Positions 61,401-63,862 of a DNA stretch of 64,000 nt are shown one piece after another. Source of the DNA: Nannobrachium achirus (lineage: Eukaryota > Chordata > Actinopteri > Myctophiformes > Myctophidae); contig OY997657.1 of NCBI GenBank assembly GCA_963921795.1, forward strand, positions 3,309,316 to 3,373,315. Direction: 5' to 3'. Position numbers and translations under genes: made by a program. The notes below the pieces were generated by a model that saw nothing but the letters and a program-made list of their open reading frames with translations, was not told the origin of the DNA and ran no database searches. Every line of letters begins with the position of its first letter. Position 1 is the stretch's first letter.

Positions 61401-63862
61401 ATAATAATATCATTAATAGCATATCATATTTCTATTACTATTAATTAGGGTCCTGCTTAACCTTCCCTATCAGACTCACCTCATCGCTACTCACCAGTTA
61501 AGAGTGGGGTGGCTCAGAGTAGATGACAGAGTACAGCAACTTGCAATGGGCCTTGTGTACAAGATACACTACACCACTAAGATACCCATGTACCTGACCA
61601 AATACTGGTCTATAAGATACACTACACCACTAAGATACCCATGTACCTGACTAAATACTGGTCTATAAGATACACTACACCACTAAGATACCCATGTACC
61701 TGACTAAATACTGGTCTATAAGATACACTACACCACTAAGATACCCATGTACCTGACTAAATACTGGTCTATAAGATACACTACACCACTAAGATACCCA
61801 TGTACCTGACTAAATACTGGTGTACAAGATACACTACACCACTAAGATACCCATGTACCTGGCAAATTACTTTATAAACGTTAAGGATGTCCACAATTAC
61901 AACACCAGAGGCAGCGCCACAGATCACGTTCAACCCAAAGTCAACTCAAACAAAGGGTCAAACTCGTTCTTCTGCTATACAACCAAAATGTGGAACGCCC
62001 TACCGAAGGCCTTAAAGGAGTGTGGTTCCCTAGCATCCTTTAAAATCGCCCTGAAAAACCACTTACAGGCGGCAGCAATTCGCAACTGGCAATAACAAAC
62101 CTAGCCCAGCCTCCCCTGACCCTTCTTTGTATTTACCTACTGTATATATTTTTTGCACTGTTTATTTTATTTTCATTTACTTTGTTTTACTATATCTACT
62201 GCATAGTACTGTGTTCTATCCGTCTGTCATTCAATGTTATATGAGATACTTCAATGGTTTCCTATGGGAAAATAATAATAATAATAATAATTAACTGTAC
62301 CTTTTTCTATGCAAACTTATTAAGTCTTCAATCAATCAATCGAACCAGAAGTGTTTAATCTACTGTAATAATATAATATCATTAATATCATATCATATTT
62401 CTATTACCAGATGGAGTGAAGTGTTTAATCTACTGTAATAATATAATATCATTAATATCATATCATATTTCTATTACCAGATGGAGTGAAGTGTTTAATC
62501 TACTGTAATAATATAATATCATTAATATCATATCATATTTCTATTACCAGATGGAGTGAAGTGTTTAATCTACTGTAATAATATAATATCATTAATATCA
62601 TATCATATTTCTATTACCAGATGACTCCATGCCAGATGGAGTGAAGTGTTTAATCTACTGTAATAATATAACATCATTAATATCATATCATATTTCTATT
62701 ACCAGATGGAGTGAAGTGTTTAATCTAGTGTAATAATATAATATCATTAATATCATATCATATTTCTATTACCAGATGACTCCATGCCAGATGGAGTGAA
62801 GTGTATAATCTACTGTAATAATATAATATCATTAATATCATATCATATTTCTATTACCAGATGACTCCATGCCAGATGGAGTGAAGTGTTTAATCTACTG
62901 TAATAATATAATATCATTAATATCATATCATATTTCTATTACCAGATGGAGTGAAGTGTTTAATCTACTGTAATAATATAATATCATTAATATCATATCA
63001 TATATCTATTACCAGATGGAGTGAAGTGTTTAATCTACTGTAATAATATAATATCATTAATATCATATCATATTTCTATTACCAGATGACTCCATGCCAG
63101 ATGGAGTGAAGTGTTTAATCTACTGTAATAATATAATATCATTAATATCATATCATATTTCTATTACCAGATGGAGTGAAGTGTTTAATCTACTGTAATA
63201 ATATAATATCATTAATATCAGATCATATTTCTATTACCAGATGGAGTGAAGTGTTTAATCTACTGTAATAATATAATATCATTAATATCATATCATATTT
63301 CTATTACCAGATGACTCCATGCCAGATGGAGTGAAGTGTTTAATCTACTGTAATAATATAATATCATTAATATCATATCATATTTCTATTACCAGATGAC
63401 TCCATGCCAGATGGAGTGAAGAACAAGCTGGCTCTGGGAGCAGCAGGTCTGGTTCTGGGTCTGGTCTTCTTCCTGTCTGGATCCATCTACTTCCTGTGGA
63501 GGAAGAGAGGAGGTGATTAATGTTTACTTTAATTCATCCATCCATCCATCTTCAACCGCTTATCCGGAATCGGGTCGCGGGGGTAACAGTTCCAACTGAG
63601 ACTTCCAGATTTCCTTATCCTGAGCAACTTCCTCCACTCCCTCAGGGAGTATAGCGAGGCGTTCCCAGGCCAGTGTGGAGATATAATCATTCCATCTGGT
63701 CTTAGATCTGCCACGGGGTCTCCTCCCAGTGGGACGTGCATCGAGGACCTTCCTAGGAAGGCGCTCGGGGGGCATCCGTACTAGATGCCCCAACCTGTTT
63801 AATTAACATGTTTAATTAATGTTTAATTAATGAACCTACTTCCAGTGGAAGAAGAGAGATGA
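49407..63862 (+). CDS. MHC class II beta chain gene, six exons, intact frame
   Basis: Beta chain of the class II antigen-presenting heterodimer. Exons 49407-49464 leader, 49937-50209 beta1, 52637-52850 and 57402-57469 beta2 (split), 63396-63512 connecting/transmembrane, 63846-63862 tail. The total of 747 nt gives 248 residues plus stop, with matching phases (1,1,2,1,1). Beta1 keeps both cysteines (QCVFNFTDL and VYCKPN) and an NFT glycosylation site. Beta2 keeps the CSAYSFYP and ITCMVEH cysteines. The extra intron in beta2 is known from neoteleost fishes. Introns 3 and 4 are swollen by minisatellites copied from the exon edges. The tail exon is the least certain: without it, exon 5 reads through to GGD and TAA at 63518-63520. 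Confidence 0.9.
49619..49770 (+). mobile_element. LINE fragment in beta intron 1
   Basis: About 150 bp matching 43334-43460 of the alpha intron 3 fragment (ACATAACAAACGGYTGCAGTGCAT.. and GTCCGATGCAGTTAGAA..), same orientation, with a small deletion (CATTGTCAA missing). Confidence 0.6.
49937..50209 (+). CDS. MHC II beta exon 2 (beta1 peptide-binding domain)
   Basis: 273 nt, phase 1 at both ends. DGFLHFWVDQCVFNFTDLED.. then IRSYYFNKQEFTRWDSRVGK, HVGYTEYGVRNAKNWNNQPG and ..EVYCKPNVDGFYSHALVKT. This is the class II beta1 fold with disulfide cysteines, the GYTEYG turn and the helix W. Usually the most polymorphic exon. Acceptor TTTCCAG|AT, donor ACAG|GTGAGC. Confidence 0.95.
50345..51547. mobile_element. 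hAT-like element in beta intron 2
   Basis: Starts CAGGGGTCTTCAACAGGGGGG and ends ..CTTGTTGAAGACCCCTG, the same ends as the MITE at 33847. About 1.2 kb, noncoding, with ACTTGAACCGTCAATACTTAA shared and GGTTAGCACCGCTCAA direct repeats near 51097 and 51330. No clear target duplication seen. Confidence 0.65.
52020..52196. repeat. GC-rich inverted-repeat segment (MITE-like) in beta intron 2
   Basis: CGGCGGCGCGA at 52020-52030 and its inverse TCGCGCCGCCG at 52186-52196 bracket 177 bp of high-GC DNA, unlike its AT-rich surroundings. No coding content. Confidence 0.55.
52637..52850 (+). CDS. MHC II beta exon 3 (first part of beta2 Ig domain)
   Basis: 214 nt. (G|TG)EPYVMVTSVTPPGGRRTAML.. CSAYSFYPKQILLTWLRDGE.. 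DGDWYYQFHSYLEYTP(R). Ends phase 2 at CCCAG|GTACAC. The split Arg codon AG|A is completed by exon 4. Acceptor TTCCAG|TG. The last 40 nt are the source of the following minisatellite. Confidence 0.94.
52851..54947 (+). repeat. 86-bp minisatellite derived from the exon 3/intron 3 boundary (part 1)
   Basis: Each 86-bp unit contains the last 40 nt of exon 3 (GGTACTACCAGTWCCACTCC, TACCTGGAGTACACACCCAG) plus 46 nt of intron beginning with the donor GTACAC. Duplicate donors lie every 86 bp from 52937 to 54657, then at 54731, 54817 and 54903. Units are nearly identical; the main variant is GTTCC/GTACC. Around 54680-54770 the units are shortened. Reading through exon 3 meets an in-frame stop at about 52963, so use of any later donor would truncate the protein. 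Confidence 0.95.
54948..55696 (+). mobile_element. Solo LTR inserted in the minisatellite
   Basis: 749 bp with ends TGTTACG..CGTAACA. Contains a TATA box GGCTATAAATAGCC near 55143 and AATAAAAACT near 55620. TAC flanks both sides (54945-54947 and 55697-55699), perhaps part of a target duplication. No internal region: it was lost by LTR-LTR recombination. A strong outside promoter within an MHC intron in sense orientation. Confidence 0.8.
55697..56066 (+). repeat. 86-bp minisatellite (part 2)
   Basis: Four further units with donors at 55741, 55827, 55913 and 55999. It ends in CACTCCTAAA(CA)n. The total over both parts is 28 duplicate donors plus the genuine one. Confidence 0.95.
56067..56149 (+). 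repeat. (CA)n microsatellite, beta intron 3
   Basis: About 41 CA units directly after the minisatellite. Confidence 0.95.
56183..57102. mobile_element. Harbinger-like MITE with TAA target duplication
   Basis: Imperfect inverted ends AGGTCCGTACATCGAGGGCG and (inverse) AGCTCTGTCCAGACCGGCG, both leading into GCGAATTNGCGAA repeats. TAA flanks (56180-56182, 57103-57105) fit Harbinger/ISL2EU 3-bp targets. A GTAGTGGAGTAGAAGG..ACTTTACACCACCG block inside (56591-56690) looks like a second nested repeat. No transposase. Confidence 0.6.
57301..57396 (+). repeat. (TG)n tract ending at the beta exon 4 acceptor
   Basis: About 48 TG units run to within 5 nt of TTACAG|exon 4. There is no normal polypyrimidine tract. 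Confidence 0.95.
57402..57469 (+). CDS. MHC II beta exon 4 (second part of beta2 domain)
   Basis: 68 nt: (AG|A)SGEQITCMVEHPGLMEPIMV DW(G). Carries the second Ig cysteine and the class II HPGL..P region. With exon 3 it gives the canonical 282 nt of beta2. Acceptor TTACAG|A, donor TGGG|GTCAGT (weak). Skipping it would remove the Ig disulfide and also shift the frame. Confidence 0.93.
57470..58064 (+). other. Beta intron 4, first part
   Basis: A CTATAATGGTGGACTGGGGTCA copy near 57528 duplicates the end of exon 4 with its donor. The rest is ordinary AT-rich intron. Confidence 0.6.
58065..58408. mobile_element. hAT-type MITE with a perfect 23-bp inner hairpin
   Basis: Ends CAGTGTTTCATATCCC and GGTTGAGAAACACTG, with flanks GTCTATAT / GTATATAA (6 of 8 match). 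Inside, 58226-58248 and 58265-58287 are perfect inverse copies containing GCAGATCTACAAG, with a 16-nt loop. Shares its core with the element near 39290-39420. Confidence 0.7.
58409..59500 (+). other. Beta intron 4, second part
   Basis: Contains MITE-like phrases (GCAGATCTGCAAGCTCAC near 58479; ACTTGAACCCTAGCATCCATATTCTGGGG near 59011, also at 50421). No exon seen. Confidence 0.45.
59500..59578 (+). mobile_element. LINE-type 3' tail
   Basis: TGCTCTATAAATAAAATTGACTTGACTTGACTTGACT: the short-tandem-repeat tail common at the 3' ends of fish L2/CR1-like LINEs, with GTACAGCACTTTGG upstream. Confidence 0.5.
59632..60180 (-). mobile_element. Second Helitron-like family, copy 1
   Basis: On the minus strand it ends in hairpin CGCCCTACGGCG, then TCTTACTAG and T: a textbook Helitron 3' end (hairpin plus CTRR, T flank). 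Contains CATCTGGCCAGAGATGT and several TATATGGAGA palindromic parts, and a duplicated 54-bp segment (GAGCAGTTCCCCTGACATCA). The 5' limit near 60180 is a guess. Confidence 0.6.
60290..60563. mobile_element. Harbinger-like MITE (TAA target duplication)
   Basis: Ends AGGTGGTTGCACACTGC and the inverse of AGGTCTTTGCACACTGC, flanked by TAA on both sides (60287-60289, 60564-60566). 274 bp, noncoding. Confidence 0.8.
60564..61080 (+). other. Beta intron 4, third part
   Basis: Inverted phrases GAATCCCTAGCCAT / ATGGCTAGGGATTC (about 60768 and 60821) suggest another small palindromic element. No gene seen. Confidence 0.45.
61080..61315 (+). mobile_element. Second Helitron-like family, copy 2
   Basis: Ends GCGCCCTGAGGCGCCTTACTAG then T (61316): hairpin plus CTAG. 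Shares CATCACTGGCCAGATGG, ATATATGGGTA and CTCACAGCATATCTCCATA with copy 1 in inverse. The left limit is approximate. Confidence 0.6.
61355..61440 (+). pseudogene. Outlying copy of the beta exon 5 start with acceptor
   Basis: TGTTTCAG|ATGACTCCATGCCAGAAGAG has a better pyrimidine context than the genuine acceptor and begins with the same DSMP coding sequence. It then diverges (AGCAAAGTGTTTTAATC) into the repeat unit also found from 62341. Probably the oldest relic of the duplication. Confidence 0.6.
61441..62340 (+). mobile_element. LINE 3' part inserted in the exon 5-derived repeat
   Basis: The coding frame from about 61490 reads ..LRVDDRVQQLAMGLVYKIHY then, after tandem duplications, ..VHNYNTRGSATDHVQPK.. 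and ..FFCYTTKMWNALPKALKECG..SFKIALKNHL. This is the C-terminal domain seen behind the reverse transcriptase of many LINE ORF2 proteins (NYNTR, WNxLP, SFKxxLK). The longest open part is 61820-62095, then TAA. The tail is AT-rich with (AAT)n and ends AATCAATCAATCG. The repeat array continues on either side. Confidence 0.75.
61561..61850 (+). repeat. 53-bp tandem repeat inside the LINE coding sequence
   Basis: AAGATACACTACACCACTAA..CATGTACCTGACTAAATACTGG recurs every 53 bp (61561, 61614, 61667, 61720, 61773, 61826). 53 is not a multiple of three, so the expansion breaks the frame. Confidence 0.95.
62341..63395 (+). repeat. 70/85-bp minisatellite derived from the intron 4/exon 5 boundary
   Basis: Units of 70 bp (ATGGAGTGAAGTGTTTAATC.. 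TTTCTATTACCAG) or 85 bp when ATGACTCCATGCCAG, the first 15 nt of exon 5, is added. Acceptors ACCAG| end at 62410, 62480, 62550, 62620, 62705, 62775, 62860, 62945, 63015, 63085, 63170, 63240, 63310 and 63395; only the last leads into the full exon. Those at 62620, 62775, 62860, 63085 and 63310 are followed by the same 26 nt as exon 5. Splicing there would add about 28 codons and then stop at the next TGA. Confidence 0.95.
63396..63512 (+). CDS. MHC II beta exon 5 (connecting peptide and transmembrane)
   Basis: (G|AT)DSMPDGVKNKLALGAAG then LVLGLVFFLSGSIYFLWRKR GG. Typical class II beta membrane helix with GxxxG spacing (GAAGLVLG), followed by basic WRKR as stop-transfer. Ends GGAG|GTGATT in phase 1. 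Read-through instead would give D and TAA. Confidence 0.93.
63533..63797 (-). mobile_element. LINE 3' end (ORF2 C-terminal remnant) in the last beta intron
   Basis: Minus-strand frame GHLVRMPPERLPRKVLDARP..RRPRGRSKTRWNDYISTLAWER..LLPPRPDSG, then GATAAGCGGTTGAAGATGGATGGATGG. This C-terminal text and the (ATGG)n tail are very common at LINE 3' ends in fish (L2/Maui-like in my judgement). TTTAATT occurs at both edges and may be the target duplication. Truncated at its 5' side. Confidence 0.75.
63846..63862 (+). CDS. MHC II beta exon 6 (cytoplasmic tail), tentative
   Basis: CTACTTCCAG|TGGAAGAAGAGAGATGA: (G|TG)EEER and stop, completing a tail GGVEEER. Phase fits. The sequence also resembles the end of exon 5 (TTCCTGTGGAGGAAGAGAGG), so it could be a decayed duplicate of that exon instead. 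Confidence 0.45.

Follow-up and report, generated by a model that had tools for sequence, protein, structure and literature searches.

A splice acceptor repeated as a minisatellite in a class II beta gene of the fish Nannobrachium achirus

Intron 4 of a major histocompatibility complex (MHC) class II beta gene in the myctophid fish Nannobrachium achirus ends in an array of tandem repeats, each of which carries the intron's own splice acceptor together with the start of exon 5. The gene lies in a 64,000-nucleotide (nt) stretch of contig OY997657.1 (assembly GCA_963921795.1), hereafter the window, and the array is known from one haplotype of one assembly. Thirteen full extra ACCAG acceptors, with AG ends from 62410 to 63310, precede the genuine one, whose AG ends at 63395. 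The array is probably a minisatellite of the kind termed mirages in amphioxus, carried mostly as a passive passenger, with the exon-proximal acceptor as the site in use. The array is genuine and, for a phenomenon already known, an uncommonly rich case, set in a vertebrate immune gene.

A repeated acceptor ahead of exon 5

The visible part of the gene spans 49407-63512 on the forward strand, which is also the strand of this gene's splice sites and their copies given below, with exons at 49407-49464, 49937-50209, 52637-52850, 57402-57469 and 63396-63512. Joined, these five exons form a single open frame, and the four intervening introns are all GT-AG. The product matches the Pfam models MHC_II_beta (PF00969; 1.1e-15, 58.1 bits against a cut-off of 20.9) and C1-set (PF07654; 4.1e-19, 69.1 bits, cut-off 21). 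Among the 120 listed of 204 database matches, which are 50-59% identical to it, those with names are mostly fish class II beta chains, and chains of this type also make up the best 60 listed among solved structures. Counts of homologues given below refer to 120 fetched sequences, of which 115 could be parsed at the head of exon 5. Genuine exon 5 (63396-63512) encodes the connecting peptide and the transmembrane helix, and it keeps the motif GxxGxxxGxxxxxxG as GAAGLVLGLVFFLSG; the same motif is present in 118 of the 120 homologues. An RILVPTN-like cytoplasmic tail forms the C-terminal end of 101 of the 120, and none was seen in the three forward frames of 63513-64000. Two published fish class IIB genes, those of the miiuy croaker and the Midas cichlid, have six exons, and the miiuy croaker paper itself mentions five in other fishes; here beta2 is split between exon 3 (214 bp, as in the cichlid) and exon 4 (68 bp, against 69 in the cichlid). 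Because the homologue tails are absent up to 64000 and the six-exon croaker and cichlid genes fit, exon 6 presumably lies past the window. What is visible has the look of an intact MHC class IIB gene of a fish.

The acceptor array occupies 62349-63395 and abuts exon 5. It consists of a truncated 62-nt unit followed by eight short units (70 bp) and five long ones (85 bp), all ending in ACCAG, in the order SSSLSLLSSLSSL, after which comes the genuine long head. Each full unit joins 11 or 26 nt of exon 5 head to a 59-nt repeat body that ends in ACCAG, a structure that upholds the proposal, made in an earlier note written from the sequence alone, that the intron 4/exon 5 boundary has been turned into a minisatellite. 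That note's count of thirteen extra acceptors is exact to the base, as is its statement that five of them carry the transmembrane exon's first 26 nt: the window has six copies of the 26-mer ATGACTCCATGCCAGATGGAGTGAAG, five of them ahead of the genuine one. After each of the remaining eight decoys, the exon head is reduced to nt 16-26. The motif CCAGATG stands twice, 15 nt apart, in the acceptor and exon head, and the 70-bp units are without that 15-nt step of the 85-bp units. The most upstream full decoy is at 62406-62410; the AG ends of the others are at 62480, 62550, 62620, 62705, 62775, 62860, 62945, 63015, 63085, 63170, 63240 and 63310, and the genuine ACCAG is at 63391-63395. One further ACCAG, with its AG ending at 62348, sits at the truncated left edge of the array. 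Genuine exon 5 also has an internal CCAG at 63407-63410, 15 nt in; splicing there would drop five codons in frame and give the head of the short units.

The units differ from their consensus at five of 985 bases, so chance is excluded as a source of the resemblance, and Tandem Repeats Finder (TRF) detects the array independently. ACCAG is kept in all thirteen decoys. In the 58-nt stretch that closes with the AG, each decoy agrees with the genuine site at 57 or all 58 positions, and the 23-nt core of the acceptor (20 + 3) is unchanged in 11 of the 13, so that any score computed on this core ranks those decoys equal to the real site. Tandem arrays are commonly misassembled, and this one might have been inflated or misplaced by the assembler; we give this explanation almost no weight, since the units carry five private substitutions and alternate irregularly between short and long, the whole array (about 1 kb) fits within one long read, and similar copies are found at other boundaries of the same gene.

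At 61359-61444 lies a diverged copy of the exon 5 head and repeat body, matching at 19 of 19 nt (61356-61374) and, over 35 nt at 61404-61438, at 97%; the older relic that the earlier note placed at 61362 is therefore real. It is preceded not by repeat body but by an acceptor-like TTTCAG, and it would encode DDSMPEEQ and so on to a stop at 61444. The reading DDSMPE has Glu at a place where 96 of the 115 parsable homologues likewise have Glu and the working exon 5 has Asp, which suggests that the relic keeps an older state, although decay could give the same result. Apparently the relic was once the array's left end, from which about 900 bp of other sequence (61445-62343, no strand assigned) now separates the rest. 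This intervening stretch holds a 53-bp tandem array of 5.7 copies (61561-61861) and then, by eye, the apparent tail of a retroelement without long terminal repeats (LTRs).

Several candidate sources for the repeat body were tried and set aside. Local alignment with intron 5 scored 21.5 at best; of 300 dinucleotide shuffles 25 did as well, or 36 when the tail alone was used, which leaves that origin unproven. For the other introns tried, the corresponding counts were 230, 49 and 218 of 300. Folding of 63241-63512 gave no sign of a special RNA structure (z -1.22, matched or bettered by 23 of 200 shuffles), and no Rfam family reached its gathering score between 49000 and 64000.

Copies at other boundaries and known relatives

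The acceptor array has a counterpart at the opposite kind of splice site. As the earlier note had claimed, a 5' and a 3' splice site are both repeated within this one gene: a separate minisatellite of 86-bp units, at 52808-56066, places 28 decoy donors (CAG/GTACAC) past the genuine exon 3 donor at 52850/52851. It is interrupted by a 747-bp insert at 54950-55696. This insert has TG...CA ends, 7-bp matching termini and a 5-bp TACTG target duplication, with TATAAA and AATAAA inside; it looks like a solo LTR that presumably entered an already existing array, and its poly(A)-like signal sits among donor copies that could bind U1. Two lesser copies were found by targeted looks. The end of exon 4 (27 nt plus GTCAG) is duplicated once at 57519-57550, 76 bp downstream of the genuine 57443-57474, with 91% identity over 32 nt (96% over the 27 nt; E 3.5e-8 in the window). 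At 63836-63858 lies a decayed duplicate of the exon 5 end, a donor relic that has lost its GT (91% over 23 nt; E 3.9e-4 in the window), in which the gapped alignment runs on into intron 5. In this copy, 349 bp downstream of its source, a T-to-A difference creates CCAG, so that it is now acceptor-like.

By such targeted looks, local copies occur at four of the nine visible exon-intron boundaries; a stricter scan with 24-mers finds them at two of the nine, and at none of three boundaries in the neighbouring, probably class II alpha, gene. A uniform scan of the gene returned 11 local duplication families, three of which straddle a boundary, where random placement predicts 0.31 (P 0.0035). In that scan the repeat unit of the exon 3 array was set to 31 and the array's right part (55697-56066) was counted separately; corrected to 10 families and a unit of 86, the expectation is 0.29 (P 0.0025). 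The relic of the exon 5 end failed the uniform scan and lies outside its boundary count. Because the test was post hoc, on a gene picked for this very property, the enrichment at boundaries is a hint only. The existence of similar duplications at other boundaries supports the mirage-type reading of the acceptor array. A far broader proposal, in which the class II beta boundaries of this lineage are hot spots of tandem duplication and form a two-ended rheostat, dependent on allele length, that sets expression and also feeds in-frame exon variants, seems to us quite unlikely.

The closest precedents come from amphioxus, where tandem duplications of exon-intron boundaries, 5' and 3', in different genes have been named mirages (PMC3087553); the genes reported are the globins BflGb6 and BflGb9, Adh3 and TnC (PMC3087553; PMC3902484). 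There as here the unit spans the boundary, adjoins the authentic site within the intron and keeps the splice signals, in many copies there and in 13 of 13 here, and the amphioxus repeats may affect either the 5' or the 3' boundary, with many copies retaining AG or GT (PMC3087553). The differences are that amphioxus is not a vertebrate, that BflGb6 has six and three units in its two haplotypes (PMC3087553), and that the two ends are affected in separate globin genes, BflGb6 and BflGb9, whereas here both belong to one gene. Nearer in this last respect is lancelet PGBD5, in which 60-bp and 108-bp arrays in a single gene are described as coinciding with or overlapping 5' and 3' splice sites. There the copies are imperfect and number, according to which assembly is used, 2 or 7 in one array and 3 or 6 in the other, and the gene model is uncertain (PMC3902484). 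Human F7 intron 7 carries a variable number of highly homologous 37-bp repeats at its 5' splice site, of which only the most upstream donor is used in the normal condition; the repeat as described there concerns the donor end and is comparable to the exon 3 array rather than to the acceptor array (PMC6627357). These cases are the same sort of thing as the repeats described here, so the earlier note's remark that it knew of no described case with both ends so amplified does not hold in kind. Minisatellite units at exon-intron boundaries are also reported from human genes in segmental duplications, with the difference that those repeats, averaging 30 bp and four copies, are said to create novel introns and alternative transcripts (PMC2812944).

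Repeats are known in fish class II genes as well. A minisatellite in a brook charr class II beta gene is reported to act on expression (Croisetiere 2010, cited in PMC3891768), though the citing text does not indicate a splice site within it. Tandem repeats in intron 2 of cichlid class IIB genes and a stickleback 10-mer cause variation in intron length, in an account that does not give their positions relative to boundaries (PMC5310070), and a salmon class II alpha gene has a minisatellite in its 3' untranslated region (PMC2386828). The portions consulted of PMC2386828 and PMC3778950 contain nothing on splice-site repeats, and among the literature matches listed (titles and the starts of abstracts, open-licence literature) there was no boundary minisatellite in an MHC gene.

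Predicted use of the decoy acceptors

The history that best explains this arrangement is that a tandem duplication straddled the intron 4/exon 5 boundary and then expanded, presumably through unequal exchange or slippage between near-identical units. Since every copy sits on the intron side, the geometry of the sequence leaves the last acceptor attached to an intact exon, and the gene can keep working. The pre-mRNA would offer 14 near-identical acceptors. We infer that exon definition most likely picks the last of them, since that one alone leads into a short exon that is complete and is followed by a good donor, and that the array then leaves with the intron. Exon 5 would be 202-1102 nt long if started from a decoy, against 117 nt from the genuine site. 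No GT within the array comes near the exon 5 donor in score (best 1.9 versus 7.7 by a donor weight matrix, the scores serving as relative values only); with no good donor before the next acceptor, a decoy would probably start an over-long exon.

The earlier note expected a decoy to replace the transmembrane helix by about 28 codons and a stop, giving a secreted form. The stop before the helix stands, in all thirteen frames, and is what would favour a secreted class II beta chain. The uniform length does not: the frames end after 7, 24, 29, 32 or 37 residues, so that the tail would vary from decoy to decoy. Against a secreted product, each of the thirteen stops also precedes the exon 5 donor by 113-1004 nt. 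Under the 50-55 nt rule, a stop that far or farther upstream of a later junction leads to decay of the message, and the homologue tails and six-exon genes lead one to expect such a junction, to a cytoplasmic exon, after exon 5. Nonsense-mediated decay is accordingly the expected fate of decoy products, and a secreted chain is highly improbable. Occasional use of a decoy would add 7-37 residues and a stop, send the transcript to decay and yield no stable secreted protein.

Experimental and comparative precedents lend support to the exon-proximal site as the main outcome, with an efficiency cost or some alternative splicing conceivable. Data on Adh3 and reverse transcription PCR of the globins suggest regular splicing of the amphioxus genes (PMC3087553). 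When the acceptor of beta-globin was duplicated, with the upstream copy followed by 14, 55 or 205 nt of exon, the distal site was used exclusively in vitro (PMC5389562). These substrates are close to the present arrangement, because the decoys here precede 11 or 26 nt of exon.

Several points weigh against a purely passive array. The acceptor has only a moderate pyrimidine tract, at 12 of 17 positions. The two nearest decoys would start exons of 202 and 272 nt, which fall within the usual range of vertebrate exon size, so that length does not exclude them. Selection on the decoys might have been a guide, and all 13 AGs are indeed intact, yet five substitutions in 985 unit bases are too few to judge whether the splice signals have been selected. 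Human boundary repeats are reported often to change splicing (PMC2812944). In vitro splicing of the duplicated-acceptor substrates was described as "very inefficient", and an earlier report cited in the same paper found that exon length after the proximal site affects the choice (PMC5389562); taken together, these two results mean that the array may not be neutral.

In one alternative, the array acts as a splicing rheostat: the speed or fidelity of splicing would depend on how many acceptors, and how many exon 3 donors, compete, decoy products would be decayed, and array length, varying between alleles, would tune class II beta expression. Two U2AF35/U2 complexes can bind where a 3' splice site is duplicated, and in vitro splicing of some of these substrates is very inefficient (PMC5389562); changed splicing patterns are reported for human boundary repeats (PMC2812944); the brook charr minisatellite is reported to modulate expression with temperature and with its length (cited in PMC3891768); and every one of the thirteen decoy stops would trigger decay if a junction follows exon 5. 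Set against this, the amphioxus mirages are reported without disturbance of splicing (PMC3087553, PMC3902484), and we regard a rheostat as rather unlikely. For the mainly passive, unstable array that we favour, the corresponding concession is that it may somewhat lower the efficiency of intron 4 splicing, and an effect of copy number on that efficiency is possible.

The repeats could also serve as a reservoir of coding variation, if exchange between a unit and the boundary swapped the 15-nt (5-codon) head of exon 5 and so altered the length of the connecting peptide, with Phe and Tyr exchanged likewise in exon 3. Long and short acceptor units differ by exactly 15 nt, in frame; 10 of the 115 parsable homologues have two or four extra residues at the exon 5 head; and of nine cichlid alleles sequenced at this point in one study, two carry an additional 12 bp where exon 5 begins (PMC5310070). 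In the exon 3 array, the coding versions of the 27 extra full units (52809-55957) comprise 21 with Tyr and 6 with Phe, the genuine exon having Phe, and these units are a possible reservoir for exchange into the exon. The homologue insertions, compared at the protein level and with one allele on our side, are nevertheless unlike the acceptor repeat in sequence, and we hold a reservoir role to be very doubtful.

Surrounding sequence and significance

Other repeats accompany the gene and its surroundings. A 37-bp tandem array of 3.5 copies (49286-49414) occupies the presumed 5' untranslated region and reaches a few bases past the ATG at 49407. Long (TG)n tracts stand directly before two acceptors, at 57300-57396 ahead of beta exon 4 and at 43668-43775 ahead of a probable class II alpha exon. 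An immunoglobulin-domain exon at 42613-42894, which lies upstream of the beta gene and has the next acceptor at 43787, probably belongs to a class II alpha gene: its match to the beta protein is at 31%, and its best solved matches include, as single class II chains, mostly alpha chains, alongside many class I structures and two class II beta. Farther upstream, small repeats recur at a spacing of 3478 bp (15623, 19101 and 22579, within 15623-22619), the third copy being partly matched in the TRF list, which suggests a duplicated segment. Much of the window's first 33 kb is taken up by a 306-bp satellite.

Boundary repeats as such were already known from amphioxus and from some human genes; what this locus offers is long, near-perfect arrays at both kinds of boundary in an immune gene. 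The number and near-identity of the sites, the two-ended arrangement and the MHC setting make it a useful test case. With 14 near-identical acceptors in one intron and 29 donors in another intron of the same gene, it amounts to a natural experiment in splice-site choice: site strength is nearly constant, so junction counts would directly measure the effects of position and exon context. In an immune gene such as this one, alleles could differ in expression, unnoticed, through the number of repeat copies that they carry.

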